The notes under the pieces: model-generated
What the model was told of the DNA's origin: nothing
Database searches by the model: none
The model's input: only the letters and a program-made list of their open reading frames with translations
Made by a program: the position numbers and the translations under genes
Virus record (IMG/VR): IMGVR_UViG_3300031576_000788
Coordinates: 1-24,883 of that record
Strand: one strand, 5' to 3'
DNA length: 24,883 nt
DNA from: a virus
Part shown: positions 2,703-24,883 of the stretch, one piece after another
Numbering within the stretch: the stretch's first letter is position 1
How the letters are laid out: every line of letters begins with the position of its first letter

Positions 2703-3374
2703 TCAGGTTGTGCGCTTCTTCGTCGCTTTTGGGGCGGACGTCGGCCCCTCAACCGCCATCTCCACATCCGGCGACTTGCCCGCATTCGCGTTGTTCGTGC
2801 TCGGACGATATCCGGCCATGAAGCCCGCGACCATCTCCGCCTGCCGGTGCGCCGCCGCCTCCGGCACCGCGCCCGCCGCCACCTGAGCCGCGTTCTGGCG
2901 CAGGTGATCCGCCAACTGCCACTCGAGCTCGTCCGAAAGCGCCCGCTGCGCGTCCCGGATCGACTGTCTCGGATCGAACAGGTGTGCCAGCACGATCGCC
3001 GCCACATTCGAAATGACGATCGCCGGCACGACAAACACCGCCACCGTCTCGACCGCACCCGCATACTGCTCGCCGCCGGCCACCAGCAGCGTATCCCCGA
3101 TAACCGCCGCCGTGATCCCGATCAGGCACACGACGACCATCAGCATGCCAATCGTGCGCTGCGCGCCGCCGCGCGCAGTGCGCGTCGTCCAGAACAGCCA
3201 GGCAATCAGCCCCACGTCCAGACCGAACAACGCCGCCACCCCCAGGATCATCATCTCCGGCGGCAGCGTCGACGTCACCAGGTGCACGCTGCGCGCCGCC
3301 GTGAAAATCAGCAGCGCCCCAGCCACGATCCACAACAAGATCGCTCCCCCGTTATCCCGACTCAGCTTCTCCAT
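2703..3374 (-). CDS. Four-pass membrane protein
   Basis: The 223-residue product has four hydrophobic helices at about residues 10-30, 41-62, 75-98 and 107-132. A charged cytoplasmic-type C-terminal region follows (about 133-223). The ATG at 3374 has AGGAGG upstream and overlaps the end of the previous membrane gene by 23 bases, so the two are probably co-translated. The location suggests a host-membrane role such as lysis or superinfection control, but no holin family is recognised, so function is unassigned. Confidence 0.75.
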   Translation of the reverse strand: MEKLSRDNGGAILLWIVAGALLIFTAARSVHLVTSTLPPEMMILGVAALFGLDVGLIAWLFWTTRTARGGAQRTIGMLMVVVCLIGITAAVIGDTLLVAGGEQYAGAVETVAVFVVPAIVISNVAAIVLAHLFDPRQSIRDAQRALSDELEWQLADHLRQNAAQVAAGAVPEAAAHRQAEMVAGFMAGYRPSTNNANAGKSPDVEMAVEGPTSAPKATKKRTT

Positions 3375-3867
3375 CTCGATTTCCTCCTGTCAGAGATTGA
3401 TACACCACTGCGCCGACGACCACCATGATCGCCAGCGCCCGCACGATAGGATGCGCCGCCGGCAGCAGCACGCCCGCCATCCACGCGAGCGCGCCGGCCA
3501 GCAGCAGCCCGCCAAAGCCCGCGCCAATCCGCGCCACGAACCCTACCGGCACCACCAGCAGCACACCCGCTGGCAGCAGCGCCGGCACATCACCGCCGAA
3601 ACTCGCCCACACCGGCCCGAACGAGACCGCCACACCGGCCACACACGCGACCACACACGCCACCCGCACCAGCACGAACGCAAACGGCTTGATCGCCTGG
3701 AACGCAACCGACAGCGCGGCCAGGCCGAGCGCCAGCACGACCGCCGCCGCACCGATCACCGCCACCCCCAGCGCGGCCAGGCCGAGCGCCAGCGCCGCCA
3801 GCGCCGCCGCCGCAAACACCACCGCCCGCACCAGCGCATCCAACGCCATCCCCACCAACGCACCCAT
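3352..3867 (-). CDS. Multi-pass Ala/Leu/Val-rich membrane protein
   Basis: The 171-residue product is almost wholly hydrophobic, with about five to six potential membrane segments. The LALGLAAL motif appears twice (about residues 27-34 and 45-52), matching a duplicated 20-base DNA stretch, so the N-terminal helices may have arisen by duplication. The ATG at 3867 is formed within an ACACGGATG tandem repeat. It is the first gene after a strong terminator. Function is unknown; it is probably paired with the following membrane protein. Confidence 0.7.
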   Translation of the reverse strand: MGALVGMALDALVRAVVFAAAALAALALGLAALGVAVIGAAAVVLALGLAALSVAFQAIKPFAFVLVRVACVVACVAGVAVSFGPVWASFGGDVPALLPAGVLLVVPVGFVARIGAGFGGLLLAGALAWMAGVLLPAAHPIVRALAIMVVVGAVVYQSLTGGNRDGEAESG

Positions 3868-7894: not shown

Positions 7895-8734
7895 ATGACC
7901 CTCACCGCCGCCGCCGCCTCCTGGTTCGCCTCGCTGCGCCTACGAAGACGCAGCGCCAAAACCATCACCTGGTACGCCATGTGGCTCGACGATCTGCAAC
8001 GCATGCTCATGTTCGACGACGTCGCGCAGGTCACGCTCGCAGATCTCCGTATCTGGCTCGCCGGCCTGCTCGCCCGCCAACTCTCGCCGGCCTCCGCGCA
8101 CGGCGCCGCGCGGACCGTCAAAGCCTTCTTTCGCTGGTGCGTCGCCGAAGAATTGCGCCCCGACGACCCCACCCTTAGACTCGAAATGCCATCACTCCCC
8201 AAGCGCATCCCCAAGCCACTCTCACCCCAGGCCATCCAGCAACTCATCAACGTCGCCGCAGGATCGCACCATCCGGAGCGCGACCAGGCCTTGATCATGT
8301 TCCTCGTCGATTCGGGCGTGCGGCTAGGTGAGCTAGTGGGGTTGCAGGTGAACGACGTCGACCTGACCAGTTACTCGGCGGTCGTGTGTGGCAAAGGGGA
8401 TCAAGAGCGGTTCGTCTTCTTTTCCGACGAGACCGCCCGCGTCTTGGCCGCCTGGCTCGCCATGCGCCCTGCCAGCGCGTCGAACCTGTTCGGACTGCGC
8501 TATCACTCCGTCGCCGGCCTGCTGCGCCGCCTGGCGAAGCGTGCCCACGTCGTCGAGCGAGTCCACCCCCACGCCCTGCGCAAGACCGCCGCCACGCGCT
8601 ACGCCGAGACCGTCGACGTGCACACCCTCAAGCAGCTCTTCGGCTGGCAGCAGCTCGAGACGTCCGAGCACTACGTCAGCCACAGCCGCGCCCGCCTCGC
8701 CGAGCGCGCCCGGGCCGCACTGCAAAGCAAGTAG
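7895..8734 (+). CDS. int: Tyrosine-family site-specific integrase
   Basis: This 279-residue recombinase integrates and excises the phage at the tRNA site just downstream. The N-terminal SAM-like core-binding domain covers about residues 1-95. The catalytic domain shows R143 (GVRLGELVGL), K167 (GKGDQ), H226-A-L-R229, W251 (FGWQ) and Y260 (TSEHYVSHS), a complete active-site set. The length is short, as in XerC/D-like enzymes without an arm-binding domain. The ATG at 7895 has AAGGAAT upstream. The stop is 147 bases from the attachment core. Confidence 0.95.
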   Translation: MTLTAAAASWFASLRLRRRSAKTITWYAMWLDDLQRMLMFDDVAQVTLADLRIWLAGLLARQLSPASAHGAARTVKAFFRWCVAEELRPDDPTLRLEMPSLPKRIPKPLSPQAIQQLINVAAGSHHPERDQALIMFLVDSGVRLGELVGLQVNDVDLTSYSAVVCGKGDQERFVFFSDETARVLAAWLAMRPASASNLFGLRYHSVAGLLRRLAKRAHVVERVHPHALRKTAATRYAETVDVHTLKQLFGWQQLETSEHYVSHSRARLAERARAALQSK

Positions 8735-8838: not shown

Positions 8839-8881
8839 AGAAGACGCCCCACATCGCACTTGCCGGAAGTCCCCCCACCCG

Positions 8882-8928
8882 ACTGACTTCGGATCAGTAG
8901 GCTGGGTGTTCGATTCACCCCGGGGGCA
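8882..8928 (+). other. attP: Phage attachment core: 3' half of tRNA-Arg(UCG)
   Basis: It contains an anticodon arm (stem ACTGA/TCAGT, loop CTTCGGA with anticodon TCG at 8889-8891) and a five-base variable loop. A T arm (GGGTG-TTCGATT-CACCC), a 3' acceptor strand CGGGGGC and discriminator A complete the 3' half. No D arm or matching 5' acceptor strand lies upstream, so this is not a working tRNA gene. The integrase next door makes it the phage copy of a tRNA-Arg integration site. The rest of 8735-9022 holds no gene. Confidence 0.8.
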
Positions 8929-10852: not shown

Positions 10853-11008
10853 GGCCGACGGCGCGCGCGACCCGGCGGCCCTTGACAGGCGACCCAAAAA
10901 CGGTTTTAGAAAAGTGTGGGGGGGTCTCTGAAAATTATACCGTTTTTGGGTACCCCGCCTGTCAAGGGTACGGAGGCCCCGCCGGGTACCCCGCGCGCGC
11001 CGTCGGCC
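10853..11008 (+). repeat. Large imperfect hairpin IR1
   Basis: The left arm (10853-10904, 52 bases) pairs completely with the right arm (10939-11008), which carries three extra pieces: ACCC (10952-10955), a 10-base piece (10969-10978) and ACCC (10988-10991). The loop of 34 bases contains GTGTGGGGGGG. It shares its inner half with IR2. Confidence 0.85.
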
Positions 11009-11195: not shown

Positions 11196-11220
11196 GTGGA
11201 AGGCGGGCACCCCGCGCGCG

Positions 11221-11310
11221 CCCTATGACAAGCGACCCAAAAACGCTATAGAAAAATTGTGGGGGGGCATCCACAATTATAGCGTTTTTGGGTACCCCGC
11301 TTGTCAAGGG
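11221..11310 (+). repeat. Large imperfect hairpin IR2
   Basis: Stem segments are 11221-11234 with 11298-11310 (13 pairs, one bulged A) and 11235-11250 with 11278-11293 (16 pairs), separated on the right by ACCC (11294-11297) exactly as in IR1. Inside is a further 7-bp stem ATTGTGG/CCACAAT around a G-rich loop. Confidence 0.85.
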
Positions 11311-11404: not shown

Positions 11405-11465
11405 GTGGATCACAGCGCCTCGCCGACACCAGCGTCCTCTTCCCCGCCGGCTTTCCCCCTTTCTT

Positions 11466-11482
11466 GGGTGGGGGGGTGGGGG
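11466..11482 (+). other. G-quadruplex-like run
   Basis: GGGTGGGGGGGTGGGGG, at the upstream end of the A-depleted tract, fits a four-tract quadruplex motif. Confidence 0.5.
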
Positions 11483-11565
11483 CGCGTCCCCGGCGCTCCT
11501 TGCCTCGGTCCGGCGCCCCGTTGCTGTGTGCTTGTGCCTTTTTTCTCGCCTGTCCTTTTGTCCTG

Positions 11566-11594
11566 TTGCTTTTTGCTGTGCGTTGTGGTATCCT
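11566..11594 (+). promoter_or_regulatory. Candidate A-poor promoter for the A-depleted operon
   Basis: TTGCTT (11566-11571), 17 bases, then TATCCT (11589-11594) with TG one base ahead (extended -10). Its only A, at 11590, is the -10 position most needed for opening. It is the only A in the roughly 440 bases from 11432 to 11870. Confidence 0.5.
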
Positions 11595-11661
11595 TGTTGC
11601 GTTGGTGGGTGTTGTGGGTCGCTTCGCTCTTCGGGGCTTTTGCTGTGTGTGGGGGTGCGCT

Positions 11662-12006
11662 GTGGTTGCTTCCTCTTTCTCGCTTTCGTCGGTTGCTTCC
11701 TCGTCGTTCTCGGTCTCTCCGGGTCTGTCCGCTGCGGCCGGGTTCCTCCGGCGCTGGGCGCGCCGGCTGGGCGGGGCGGGCTGCTTCCGCGTGGGCGCCT
11801 CCTGGCGCTCTGCCCGCTTCGTGCTGGTGTTCCCGTCCGCTCGTGTGGCTGCCCGGTTCGCCGCCTCGCCACTGTTCGGCGCGTTCTGGCGCCTGGCCTG
11901 GTCGGCGGGCGGGTCGGCTGTGCCCGCCGGCGCTGTGTCCGGCCTGTCGGTCTCCCGGCGTGGGCGCGTGGTGGTGGTCTGGGGCTCGCCGCTCGTCTGG
12001 GGCTAG
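11662..12006 (+). CDS. A-depleted gene 1: ten-letter-alphabet protein, unknown function
   Basis: The 114-residue product starts at GTG 11662, chosen because GGGGGTG lies five bases upstream, the same arrangement as the next gene. It contains only A, C, F, G, L, P, R, S, V and W. There is a Ser-rich N-terminus (about 1-20), an Arg-rich helix (GFLRRWARRLGG, 27-38), strand-like RFVLVFPSARVAARF (52-66) and a hydrophobic GRVVVVWGSPLVW end (101-113). No family can be claimed. Being A-free, ending 23 bases before the SLOG gene and having a parallel start signal support it as a real partner gene. Confidence 0.6.
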   Translation: MVASSFSLSSVASSSFSVSPGLSAAAGFLRRWARRLGGAGCFRVGASWRSARFVLVFPSARVAARFAASPLFGAFWRLAWSAGGSAVPAGAVSGLSVSRRGRVVVVWGSPLVWG

Positions 12007-12029
12007 CGGCGTTTGTTTGGGGGTGTGCC

Positions 12030-12683
12030 GTGGGCGCTCTGTCTGGTCTGTCCTTCTCCGCTGTCGGGTTCTGTGGCCCGCGCTCCCTGCCGCCGGCCGG
12101 GTGTGCGTGGGTGTCTGCCGCCGCCGCCTCTGCTGTGGCGCGCGGCGCTGTCGTCGCCTCCGGCTGTGCTGTTGGCGCCGATGCCGCCGCGCTTTCCGGC
12201 GCGGGCGGCGCGGGCGGCCTGCCGCGCGTCTTCGCCGTCGGCTCGCTCGCCGGCGCGGGCTTTCCCGCGCCCGGCGTGCCGGCTGCCGTCGCGGCTGCCG
12301 CTGCCGCCAGCGCGTCCGTGCGGTGGTTGGCCGGCGGCCCGCTGTCCGTGCCCCTGCCCGCTCGTCTGGCCGGCCGCTCGCTCGCGCTCGTGCGTTGGCT
12401 GTCGCGCGCCGGCGGCGTGCTCGTGTGCGCGGCCTCGTCCCTGCCGTCGCGCGCCTTCGGTCCGGGGCCGTTCCCCTCTTGCGGCTCCGGCTCCTGGTCG
12501 TCCGTCGCGGCGGCGGTGTTGGCCGGCGTGCCGGTGGCCGTCGCGCCCTTCGGCGTCGCGCCGGCGTCCTTCCCGCTCCTGCCCGGCGGCGGCTCGTGGG
12601 CGCCTGCGGGGGTGGTGTTGGCCGGCGTGTCGCTGTGGTCGCCGGCCGGCGTGGCTCTCCGCCTGCCGGGGTTCGGGGTGTGA
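12030..12683 (+). CDS. A-depleted gene 2: SLOG/DprA-like Rossmann-fold protein
   Basis: The 217-residue product starts at GTG 12030, preceded by GGGGGTG. It has SLOG-superfamily marks in order: GFCGPRSLP (13-21, as in GxxGxRxL), GCAVGADAAAL (46-56, as in GGxxGAD), an Arg-containing helix ARLAGRSLALVRW (111-123), then VLVCAASS, and GSGSWSSVAAAVLAGVPVAV (152-171). Known SLOG proteins bind nucleotides or nucleotide-derived signals; DprA also loads RecA. Composition is limited to ten amino acids apart from D51 (GAT, one of the few A residues). Lys, Glu, Asn, Ile, Thr and Tyr are absent, which is extraordinary for a soluble domain. The longer in-frame upstream reading is rejected. Confidence 0.75.
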   Translation: MGALSGLSFSAVGFCGPRSLPPAGCAWVSAAAASAVARGAVVASGCAVGADAAALSGAGGAGGLPRVFAVGSLAGAGFPAPGVPAAVAAAAAASASVRWLAGGPLSVPLPARLAGRSLALVRWLSRAGGVLVCAASSLPSRAFGPGPFPSCGSGSWSSVAAAVLAGVPVAVAPFGVAPASFPLLPGGGSWAPAGVVLAGVSLWSPAGVALRLPGFGV

Positions 12684-12694
12684 GGAGGATATAA

Positions 12695-12973
12695 ATGTTG
12701 GGGCTCCGGGGTGTGTGGGGTGTTGGGAAAGACAAGCGCGTCCCTTGGCCGGCGGGGGGTTGCCGCTGGCCGGGGCGCGTGGCGAGCCTACCAGCGGGCT
12801 TCGCTGCGGAGCGCGCCAGAATCGCCCGGCGAACAAAGCCGCCGGGCGGGCGCGCCCGCAGACTGCCCGCTTTGGCCGTGTGGAAAGAGGACGCGCGCGG
12901 AAAAGCAAAAGCCGCGCGCGGAGTTAGCAGCAAAAGCAAAAGCAAAATCAAAAGCGAAAGGGGATTGAAATGA
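12695..12973 (+). CDS. Small very basic protein, unknown function
   Basis: The 92-residue product's ATG follows GGAGG by six bases, directly after the SLOG stop. It is rich in Arg, Gly and Pro (about residues 20-60). It ends in a Lys/Ser tail (SSKSKSKIKSERGLK), suggesting nucleic-acid binding or disorder. A residues return abruptly in this gene. The stop overlaps the next start (ATGA). No family is recognised. Confidence 0.55.
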   Translation: MLGLRGVWGVGKDKRVPWPAGGCRWPGRVASLPAGFAAERARIARRTKPPGGRARRLPALAVWKEDARGKAKAARGVSSKSKSKIKSERGLK

Positions 12974-13110
12974 CTAGCGAACAGAGGAAAGAGATCGCCT
13001 ACAGGCGATGGAACGAAGCCGGCCAGGTGGGCGAGCCGGAAGACTACGCGCCGCGCTGCGTGCACGGCGCGCCGTGGGAGTGCGAGGAGTGCCAGGAGGA
13101 GGAGAAATGA
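12970..13110 (+). CDS. Tiny Cys/His protein, possible zinc ribbon
   Basis: The 46-residue product has C30, H32, C38 and C41 (CVHGAPWECEEC), which could bind one zinc ion, followed by an acidic tail. The start overlaps the previous stop and the stop overlaps the next start (ATGA at both ends), so translation is coupled. Such small zinc proteins are common in phage early operons; the function is unknown. Confidence 0.6.
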   Translation: MTSEQRKEIAYRRWNEAGQVGEPEDYAPRCVHGAPWECEECQEEEK

Positions 13111-13391
13111 TACCGCTCTCGTATGTGTGGGATCGTGCTCGTGATCATCGCGCCGTTGTGTTCGGGTGGAGGCCGAGTATCCGCGCCGATTGCGTCGCCG
13201 TCGCCATGTTCGAGGCGATGGCGCAGGCGCAGGCATTCGCCCGCGCCGTGAGCCGGGCCGCCATCATTCGCCGCTGCTGGTTGTCGGGCTTGTGGCTTGT
13301 TTCCGTGCCCGTGCCGCGTGTTAGGTGGTTGCCGCTCGTGGACTTCGGCGCGCCGTCCGATTTCCGTATCACGCTCGCCGGAGCGTGCTAA
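13107..13391 (+). CDS. Small protein of unknown function
   Basis: The 94-residue product starts at ATG 13107, overlapping the preceding stop, with GGAGGAG just upstream. The N-terminal half has an Ala-rich helix (AVAMFEAMAQAQAFARAVSRAAIIRR, about 32-57). The C-terminal half is strand-like (LVSVPVPRVRWLPLVDFG). No family is recognised. Confidence 0.6.
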   Translation: MIPLSYVWDRARDHRAVVFGWRPSIRADCVAVAMFEAMAQAQAFARAVSRAAIIRRCWLSGLWLVSVPVPRVRWLPLVDFGAPSDFRITLAGAC

Positions 13392-22911: not shown

Positions 22912-24883
22912 ACGGCACGTTGTTCTTGTGCAGCGGCCGGAAGTCGATCACGCCTACGGTGTAAAAGTACCTGACCTTCACCGGCAGCGTGTCGTTGTGG
23001 AACATCAGGTAGCTGTTCGGGTCGGCCGCGATGAAGATCTCCGGCGTCTCCCCGAAGCGGAAGCCGCACCCGATGCCCGGCGCGATGCGCGGATCGATGC
23101 ACGCCGCCCAGTCGTTCGCGTCGGTCCACTCCGGCACGACCACCACGTTGTCGTCGCGGAAGTTCTGATCCCGCCCGGCCACGTTCACGTCGTTCAGACT
23201 GCCGCCCGGCTCCTGCGAGCTGACGAACAGATTGACCGCCGTCTTGCGCACCTCGATCGGCACCATCACGATCGACGGCCGCATGCCCAGGCGCTTGCTC
23301 GAACTGAGCTCGGTCTGCTTGAACACCGCCTGCACCACCGCATCCCACTCGGTTGCAGACAGGGCCACCGTGCGCAGGTTGTTGTGCGAGGCGTGGAACA
23401 GCGCGAGGCCGTCGCCCAGCGTCGGCCCGGCACCGGACGCCTGCGTGAAGATCGTCGCCACTTCGTTCGACAGCGTGCGCAGCGCGGCGATGGCCATGCC
23501 CACCGGCACCGCGCGCCACTTCTCCGTATCGTCCCGGTCGATCATCTCAAGCGTCAGGCCCAGATAGCCGCCCTTCTTCAGCCAGTTGCTCGTCTCCCGG
23601 CTGTCGTCCCACACCAGTTCGGTGTAAGACGCGCCCTCGCCGATGGTCGGCAGATCGCCGAAGCCGCCGTAAGTCACCCAACTGACTTGCTGGATCGACT
23701 CGAACGAGCGCACCGCCACGATCTTCTGCCACCAGCGGTAATCCTGCAGGTTGCTCCACGTCGCATACACGGCCTTGTTGATCACGTTGCGCGTGAACTC
23801 CGCCATCGTGGTCGTGTTCGCGTTGGCGAACTGCACGCGGCCCGGGTTGTAGACGCCGCGCATCTCGCGGTCACCCGTCAGCAAGTGATACAGCTCGCGG
23901 ATGCCGGTCAGACGCGGCACGTCCGCGAACTGCGCCTCGACCGGATAACCCATCAGCCGGTCATACGCCGCCTGCAGCCTGTCCAGGTCACTCCACATCG
24001 CGTTTACGATCGGGGCCGGCCGGCGACCGTCGCCGACGGCGTGCCCCATGCCCTGAATGCTGGCCGGCCCGGCCAGCGCCGCGGCCGCCGCACGCGCCCG
24101 CACCACTTCCGCATCCAACTCGGCCGGGCTGAACACACGCGCCTGGCCGTCCAGGCCGGTGAAGTGCGCGCGCACCAGGCTCGTGATCCCCTCCGGCAGA
24201 TTCGCCGTGGCCAGCCGCATCTCCAGCAGTTGCGCACACTGCGCGCGCTGCACGGCTTCGGTCTGCTCCCGCTCCGCGCGCTGCAGGGCAAGAGTCAATT
24301 CGTCGTGACTCGGGCCGCCAGCCGGCGCCGGCACCAGAGAAGACAGGCTCACATTCGCCGGCGCTTGTGTCGCCGCCGTCACACTCACAGACGTGGTCGA
24401 GGCATCCCCATGCCTCGAACCCACGCCCGTTTGGTTCTGTTCGTTGCTCATGTTGTTGCTCCCTTGTCGAATGGAATTGAGAACACGACTGACTTCACCG
24501 CCTGCCGCAGCCTCGTAGACCTCGTCGACCGACCACACCTTCGTAATCTCCGCGATAGCGCGCTTGCCGTTCTTCAACTCCGGCTCCCACTTGACGCTGA
24601 GCAACGCGCTCAGCCCCAGCCGGGGCGGAGTGACGCCAGCCTCTCGCATCGAGGCGATCAGGTCCAGCCGCTCGATCGCTCGCTCGGACTGCTGCAGCCT
24701 GAACACGTGTAACTCGCCGAGCATCGCGTTATCCACCACCGAATAGCGCGGGAACTGAACCGTCCCCAAAAAGCGCTCCACGCTCGGCGACTCGAAAAAG
24801 CCCGGATGATCGACAAACATCGAGGCGTTCGCCCACAGCGGCGCGCTGCGCTGCAGCACCTCGCTAGGCAGCACCCACCCGTT
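22910..24883 (-). CDS. Capsid maturation protease-major capsid fusion, partial at right edge
   Basis: At least 654 residues are visible. The frame is open to the edge (codons NGW before a GTG at 24874), so the true start is probably outside. Residues about 1-135 resemble a prohead protease/scaffold module (FVDHPGFFESPSVERFLGTV, PRLGLSALLSVKW, EITKVWSVDEVYEAAAGGEVSRVLNS). A Ser/Thr/Gln-rich linker and coiled-coil-like segment follow (about 140-260). From about 290 a major capsid domain follows, with NLQDYRWWQKIV, LPTIGEGASYTELVWDDSRETSNWLKKGGYLGLTLEMIDRDD, LFHASHNNL and a strand-rich end. Self-cleavage would release the shell protein. A palindromic repeat inside the linker encodes SRHGDAS. Confidence 0.85.
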   Translation of the reverse strand, partial: NGWVLPSEVLQRSAPLWANASMFVDHPGFFESPSVERFLGTVQFPRYSVVDNAMLGELHVFRLQQSERAIERLDLIASMREAGVTPPRLGLSALLSVKWEPELKNGKRAIAEITKVWSVDEVYEAAAGGEVSRVLNSIRQGSNNMSNEQNQTGVGSRHGDASTTSVSVTAATQAPANVSLSSLVPAPAGGPSHDELTLALQRAEREQTEAVQRAQCAQLLEMRLATANLPEGITSLVRAHFTGLDGQARVFSPAELDAEVVRARAAAAALAGPASIQGMGHAVGDGRRPAPIVNAMWSDLDRLQAAYDRLMGYPVEAQFADVPRLTGIRELYHLLTGDREMRGVYNPGRVQFANANTTTMAEFTRNVINKAVYATWSNLQDYRWWQKIVAVRSFESIQQVSWVTYGGFGDLPTIGEGASYTELVWDDSRETSNWLKKGGYLGLTLEMIDRDDTEKWRAVPVGMAIAALRTLSNEVATIFTQASGAGPTLGDGLALFHASHNNLRTVALSATEWDAVVQAVFKQTELSSSKRLGMRPSIVMVPIEVRKTAVNLFVSSQEPGGSLNDVNVAGRDQNFRDDNVVVVPEWTDANDWAACIDPRIAPGIGCGFRFGETPEIFIAADPNSYLMFHNDTLPVKVRYFYTVGVIDFRPLHKNNVP
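24397..24418. repeat. GGCATCCCCATGCC palindrome, copy 3
   Basis: Perfect 9-bp arms (TCGAGGCAT/ATGCCTCGA) with a CCCC loop, inside the flexible linker of the capsid fusion gene. Confidence 0.75.

Follow-up and report, generated by a model that had tools for sequence, protein, structure and literature searches.

A phage operon nearly free of coding-strand adenine encodes a predicted DprA-like SLOG protein and has adenine-depleted relatives

Results

An adenine-depleted tract spans two genes and their non-coding DNA

The sequence analysed here, referred to as the window, is the entire 24,883-base IMG/VR virus record IMGVR_UViG_3300031576_000788. It carries a tract of 1,251 bases with only five A residues on the coding strand, at positions 11590, 11871, 12005, 12181, and 12309, alongside 445 C, 488 G, and 313 T residues. 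The tract begins in non-coding DNA, runs through a weak candidate promoter, and contains a gene for a small protein, g1, followed by a gene for a putative DprA-like SLOG protein (Table 1). Both genes are preceded by GGGGGTG, which we infer from sequence alone to be a ribosome-binding site where GGAGGTG would be usual, and the copy 5′ of g1 is conserved in the related locus L002. The counterpart of the upstream non-coding DNA is also A-free in L002 and nearly so in a second relative, L011, despite poor sequence conservation. The promoter, proposed in an earlier sequence-only reading of the window, held only in part: it is weak and was not picked up by a consensus promoter scan, though its A at position 11590 is kept in the alignment (TATCCT in the window and L002, TACCCT in L011).

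Table 1. Coordinates of the tract, its parts, and a related gene outside it, numbered along the window.
Feature	Position	Strand	Basis
Adenine-depleted tract, 5 A in 1,251 nt	11432..12682	+	Base count, segmentation
A-free non-coding DNA upstream of candidate -10	11432..11588	+	Composition, alignment
Weak candidate promoter, TTGCTT-17-TATCCT	11566..11594	+	Read in sequence, alignment
GGGGGTG before g1, putative A-free variant of GGAGGTG ribosome-binding site	11651..11657	+	Read in sequence
g1, 114 aa, GTG start, TAG stop with A at 12005	11662..12006	+	
GGGGGTG before SLOG, putative A-free ribosome-binding site variant	12019..12025	+	Read in sequence
SLOG gene (predicted DprA-like), 217 aa, GTG start, TGA stop	12030..12683	+	
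Gene outside tract, 9.2% A, related to L011 5516-5815	13107..13391	+	Cross-genome BLAST cluster, composition

The rest of the window is 17.9% A, and in a binomial comparison with the phage's own composition the log10 P for five or fewer A residues in 1,251 bases is ~ -97. The lowest fraction of A or T in any other 1,251-nt stretch of the window is 10.7%. Two-state segmentation gave tract ends identical to those from the base count, and the first A 3′ of the tract is supplied by the SLOG stop codon TGA (12681-12683). No A occurs in the 156 nt upstream of the -10 element, in the 68-nt leader, or in the 23-nt spacer; g1 has one in 342 nt and SLOG two in 651 nt, while the 100 nt that follow the tract contain 12. 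Three of the five A residues are unavoidable or functional, belonging to the candidate -10, the g1 stop codon, and the SLOG Asp codon. A recount reproduced exactly the number and positions of A residues given in the sequence-only reading, and its claim that depletion ends exactly at the SLOG stop codon also held.

At the phage's codon usage the two proteins would be expected to require 16.5 A residues (g1) and 24.9 (SLOG), compared with the one and two observed, and for a phage protein as long as SLOG the average would be ~93. Therefore, A is missing from the amino acids, from synonymous codons, and from non-coding DNA. The entire alphabet of the two proteins consists of ten amino acids (A, C, F, G, L, P, R, S, V, and W) and a single Asp, encoded by GAT at 12180-12182 within the SLOG motif GCAVGAD. 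An assembly artefact, raised as an objection alongside the original observation, is ruled out: the A-depleted state recurs in independent contigs from other metagenomes, and two related loci were found at 100% identity in separate assemblies.

Just upstream of the tract, at 10880-10970 and 11218-11310, are two long imperfect palindromes that resemble each other, with CTTGACAGGCGACCCAAAAACGG-like arms and a run of G in their loops. Just downstream, at 12830-12970, the sequence is the opposite of the tract, being A-rich and T-poor with GCAAAAGC repeats. A weak tRNA match at 8856-8928 (30.5 bits with Rfam, none with ARAGORN) adjoins an integrase gene (7895-8734), and the pair could represent an attachment site. 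A second low-A stretch, at 3430-3866 with ~3% A on the minus strand, lies within a gene (3352-3867) for a hydrophobic, probably membrane, protein, and is likely to need no explanation beyond ordinary amino-acid composition.

The SLOG protein is predicted to have a DprA-like fold

An AlphaFold2 model of the SLOG protein, calculated with an 18-sequence family alignment as input, has a pLDDT of 88 and a pTM of 0.87, and the solved folds nearest to it are DprA, ShosA, and Moco carrier proteins. G-S-R and GxAxGxD motifs are invariant in the family alignment. Judged by fold and motifs together, the window protein passes as a DprA-like member of the SLOG superfamily, with the fold itself predicted by a model. 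Its scores against DprA/Smf profiles did not meet the cut-offs (19.4 bits vs 29.6 for Pfam PF02481, and 17.4 vs 191 for NCBIfam TIGR00732). By eye, the LOG phosphoribohydrolase motif PGGxGTxxE is absent from the family alignment, where its place is taken by CGSGSW/CGSGTW or PGxGSL and the Glu is missing. We conclude that the SLOG protein has no evident LOG catalytic motif, and its function has not been shown. The small partner protein g1 gave no match in Pfam or PHROG.

The SLOG proteins of L028, L033, L034, L035, L036, L038, L043, L046, and L048 end in Q-x-x-[LM]-F, with QLALF, QLPLF, QPSLF, QVSLF, and others as C-terminal variants among the relatives. In the window clade the protein ends in LPGF, without the Gln. 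The CAG codon of the C-terminal Gln is among the few places where A is kept in the near-A-free SLOG genes of L035 and L043. A Q..LF ending resembles the bacterial DNA sliding-clamp-binding motif. With only this general resemblance and no binding data, action of SLOG at the replication clamp is possible and should be treated as no more than a lead.

Related SLOG loci form an A-depleted gene class

We recovered 31 distinct SLOG loci by searching viral contigs and one genome collection, and in all but one of them the A content of the SLOG gene is under half the local value (median 5.0% vs 23.4%). The recurrence of the depletion is shown by these counts, with background A of ~18 to 32% across the depleted loci and ~43 to 67% GC in the genomes that carry the depleted operon. 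The sequence-only reading had asked whether homologs are A-depleted regardless of genome GC and had named homologs with ordinary A as the refuting result; the test was passed in 30/31 loci, and the refuting result was met only by L094, a distant, long-branch relative (SLOG A 19.4% vs local 19.6%). Because L094 is ordinary in A, the SLOG fold and protein need no A bias. When the ORFs of 19 records were ranked by how strongly they lack A after G or T, the highest ranks went almost entirely to ORFs of the SLOG operon, in one frame or another.

Capsid and terminase genes are common to most of the SLOG records, so the depleted loci largely represent one phage group with diverged genomes. The group's terminase shares only 31% identity with the terminase of a cultured Bacillus phage, and no host was found for the group. 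None of the cultured phages and plasmids in the searched collections encodes this SLOG, and extending the search across the phylum of the MAG returned nothing closer than remote DprA-like matches. DprA-like genes of other genomes (L017-L024) contain 12-31% A, mostly near that of their surroundings. In the SLOG tree, extreme A loss is found on separated branches (window/L002/L011; L043/L083; L035). Ascertainment through GC-rich search patterns was considered and rejected: a control scan with AGR arginine codons gave no additional SLOG, and a peptide-based scan recovered the depleted loci and also the ordinary L094.

The existence of an A-depleted gene class that obeys a dinucleotide rule, described below, is in our judgement very likely. 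We found no such class, and no description of adenine-free genes, in the open-access literature searched; the sequence-only reading likewise knew of no named element with this property. Two of the records have peculiarities of their own. The record behind L007 (G004) carries an identical ORF at both ends (415-633 and 24434-24652), which suggests a direct terminal repeat, and in L041 the SLOG reading frame seems to enter unrelated sequence past ~1330, possibly through a chimeric join.

Position relative to the tract decides A content

In the single-gene loci L035, L038, and L048, depletion extends from the start codon to the stop codon, with A-rich sequence flanking both sides. In L046 the sequence 5′ of the start is A-rich and the first 60 nt are mixed. 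In the extreme multi-gene loci the spacers, the leaders, and ~150-215 nt before the promoter are also A-free. The start-to-stop limits are a direct observation. One gene family occurs both outside and inside a tract: outside the tract it contains 9.2% A in the window and 9.5% in L002, and inside the tract of L011 it contains no A at all (Table 1). The kinship of the window and L011 genes rests on a cross-genome BLAST cluster and a reading of the aligned sequences, without a separate pairwise comparison. We conclude that it is the gene's position relative to the tract, not its protein, that decides A content.

The remaining A follows a strand-specific neighbour rule

Pooled over nine milder lineages, the observed and expected counts are 25/438 (0.06) for GA and 19/204 (0.09) for TA, with 268/431 (0.62) for CA and a ratio of 0.49 for AA. 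Trinucleotides over fourteen lineages give the same picture, with CAA at 1.05, CAG at 0.83, CAT at 0.69, and CAC at 0.36 of expectation, GAN at 0.03-0.09, and TAN at 0.12-0.23. The controls for these expectations were long ATG-started ORFs or the rest of the record, not curated genes. The rule spans codon boundaries, with codons that start with A preceded by C in 10/11 cases in L028 and 15/17 in L007, and these counts show it to be a rule of nucleotide context. It also varies: L048 tolerates GA (13 vs 53 expected) and not CA (1 vs 43), and its sister L035 keeps little GA or CA. A is retained at functional spots, namely the -10, stop codons, the GAD Asp, and the C-terminal Gln. The description of the tract as having almost no A thus holds for the window, but as an extreme form of a broader rule that bars A after G or T. 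Across the nine lineages there is no systematic loss of the mirror dinucleotides TG, TC, and TT, and segmentation found few low-A segments on the opposite strand, which shows that the depletion is strand-specific.

A constraint from protein or codons, whether hydrophobic composition, tRNA limits, or avoidance of out-of-frame stop codons, is largely refuted by these data and can be all but set aside. In its favour, hydrophobic GC-rich genes can get to ~3% A, as in the minus-strand stretch of the window at 3430-3866, and A after C can never sit in a stop codon. However, third positions, leader, and spacer are depleted too, and the context rule spans codon boundaries. In L094 a member of this protein family is encoded with ordinary A, and the gene family discussed above goes from 9% A in the window, where it lies outside the tract, to no A in L011, where it lies inside. 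Against stop avoidance, GA is shunned in all contexts, beyond TGA, and out-of-frame stops are present in L048 and L035. The earlier claim that neither codon choice nor protein composition is enough by itself to explain the tract is supported.

A local mutational process that destroys coding-strand A, with functional A restored by selection, is also unlikely. Such a process could be transcription-linked adenine deamination or depurination, or A-miscopying reverse transcription as in diversity-generating retroelements. Neighbour-dependent loss is typical of mutagenic enzymes, and the depletion is strand-specific and extends into non-coding DNA above the candidate promoter. However, at fourfold sites after G or T the fraction of A drops from 0.14 to 0.01 (-0.13) and C, G, and T gain 0.05 each. 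The lost A is shared evenly by the three other bases and not shifted to G, so A-to-G editing is not the cause and the footprint of an adenine deaminase is absent. A diversity-generating retroelement was rejected on the reverse-transcriptase criterion alone, leaving template and variable repeats out of account: PF00078 had no match in 19 records, the majority of which are fragments. Finally, the limits in single-gene loci are start and stop codons, which a DNA-level process would not know.

Discussion

We propose that selection keeps the operon's message uncut by an adenosine-dependent single-strand RNase. We favour this proposal over the alternatives below, although the agent has not been shown and the proposal is slightly more likely to be wrong than right. 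In this model, g1 and the DprA-like SLOG gene would form a short phage operon from whose message adenosine has long been selected out. The core rule, seen in the milder lineages, is no A after G or U from start to stop codon, and in the extreme lineages, including the window, nearly all A has been lost, also from codons, spacers, and ribosome-binding sites. During infection, translation of the message would continue in the presence of an active adenosine-dependent single-strand endoribonuclease, and the SLOG protein would still be made as cleavage removes other messages. Candidates for this agent are a collateral HEPN nuclease of the Csx1/Csm6/Cas13 kind and an mRNA interferase. The start and stop limits would be accounted for if only cuts between the ribosome-binding site and the stop codon destroy the message.

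An RNase-proof message that is needed intact from its ribosome-binding site to its stop codon predicts strand specificity, context, limits, and the functional A that is kept. The mark by which we judged such a message, strand-specific loss of a nucleotide context, is present. That RNA is the target of the depletion is inferred, and we lean towards it with moderate confidence. A nuclease as the agent and a protein that acts during the attack are likewise inferences, and survival of the message under an A-dependent RNase is inferred without expression or RNase data. Several points stand against the RNase reading. The nuclease is unidentified, as is the host. The A-free 150-215 nt above the candidate promoter fits mRNA only if transcription begins further upstream, and without known transcript ends the claim of an A-rich 5′ leader rests on the ribosome-binding site and nearby bases. 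In addition, L046 is mixed over its first 60 nt and L094 is not depleted.

A possible alternative is a self-exempting effector, in which the g1 or SLOG product targets adenosine in RNA or single-stranded DNA, either itself or by an indirect route, and loss of A made the operon immune to its own product. This alternative is supported by the restriction of the depletion to this operon in every record, other phage genes being ordinary, and by a forbidden neighbour that varies by lineage, as if specificity evolved with the operon. Against it, SLOG has a predicted DprA-like fold without an evident catalytic motif, g1 has no known domain, several depleted loci have no recognised g1 before SLOG, the L094 gene for a protein of this family has ordinary A, and the phage's remaining genes would be hit. 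Whether a nuclease would come from the host or from the operon is a related question, on which L094 slightly favours an outside agent. It is very unlikely that A-poor transcription is itself selected, for example through ATP sparing or escape from A modification in RNA during a defence that depletes ATP or edits A. The deficit does lie on the sense strand, in leader and spacer as well as codons, and RNA modification with a neighbour preference is not excluded. However, ATP sparing predicts neither that A is tolerated after C or A but barred after G or T, nor A-rich leaders adjoining the start codon.

Extending the RNase reading, these operons may be a natural class of phage genes whose messages were rewritten to be uncuttable by adenosine-dependent RNases, with half of the amino-acid alphabet given up and lineage-specific forbidden dinucleotides recording the specificity of the enemy nuclease. 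This bolder version is tentative, and on balance we would not favour it at present. Base composition is usually a by-product of mutation bias, and here one operon keeps a one-strand, one-base rule at the cost of a protein of ten amino-acid types and one Asp, for which a SLOG fold is nevertheless predicted. Should the nuclease reading be true, the residual dinucleotides would be a readable record of an unseen RNase's specificity, and strand-specific loss of one base or dinucleotide would offer a simple computational screen for genes that work during RNA-degrading immunity.

The phage SLOG protein shares its predicted fold and the GSR and GxAxGxD motifs with DprA/Smf and other SLOG proteins (DprA 3uqz, ShosA 8zva, and YspA-like phage proteins), but scores far under the family cut-offs, and ordinary SLOG/DprA genes are not A-depleted. 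As in diversity-generating retroelements, the effect is adenine-specific and lies in a phage locus; unlike in those elements, depletion covers whole operons. Adenosine- or purine-specific RNases of varying specificity exist, and Csx1/Csm6-type enzymes cleave after A or purines with a specificity that differs from one enzyme to another (PMC7192623; PMC9676260). The Csx1/Csm6 HEPN RNases of type III CRISPR, single-strand cutters at A or purines, are the type of agent that the model needs. No Csx1 or Csm6 was found here, and to our knowledge no described Csx1 or Csm6 has a strict [GU]A rule. The closest parallel to the proposed message is the engineered MazF single-protein-production (SPP) system, in which a message that lacks the target site escapes MazF and stays intact and translated while others are cut (PMC4775720). 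In the phage operon, too, a site-free message would outlast an RNase. The MazF system is engineered, has the three-base site ACA, and relies on codon changes only (PMC4775720). In contrast, the phage operon is natural, its nuclease is unidentified, and that nuclease would recognise A or [GU]A; the changes also extend to amino acids, spacers, and ribosome-binding sites. If the nuclease reading is true, the operon would be the equivalent in nature of this MazF-based expression of a single protein.
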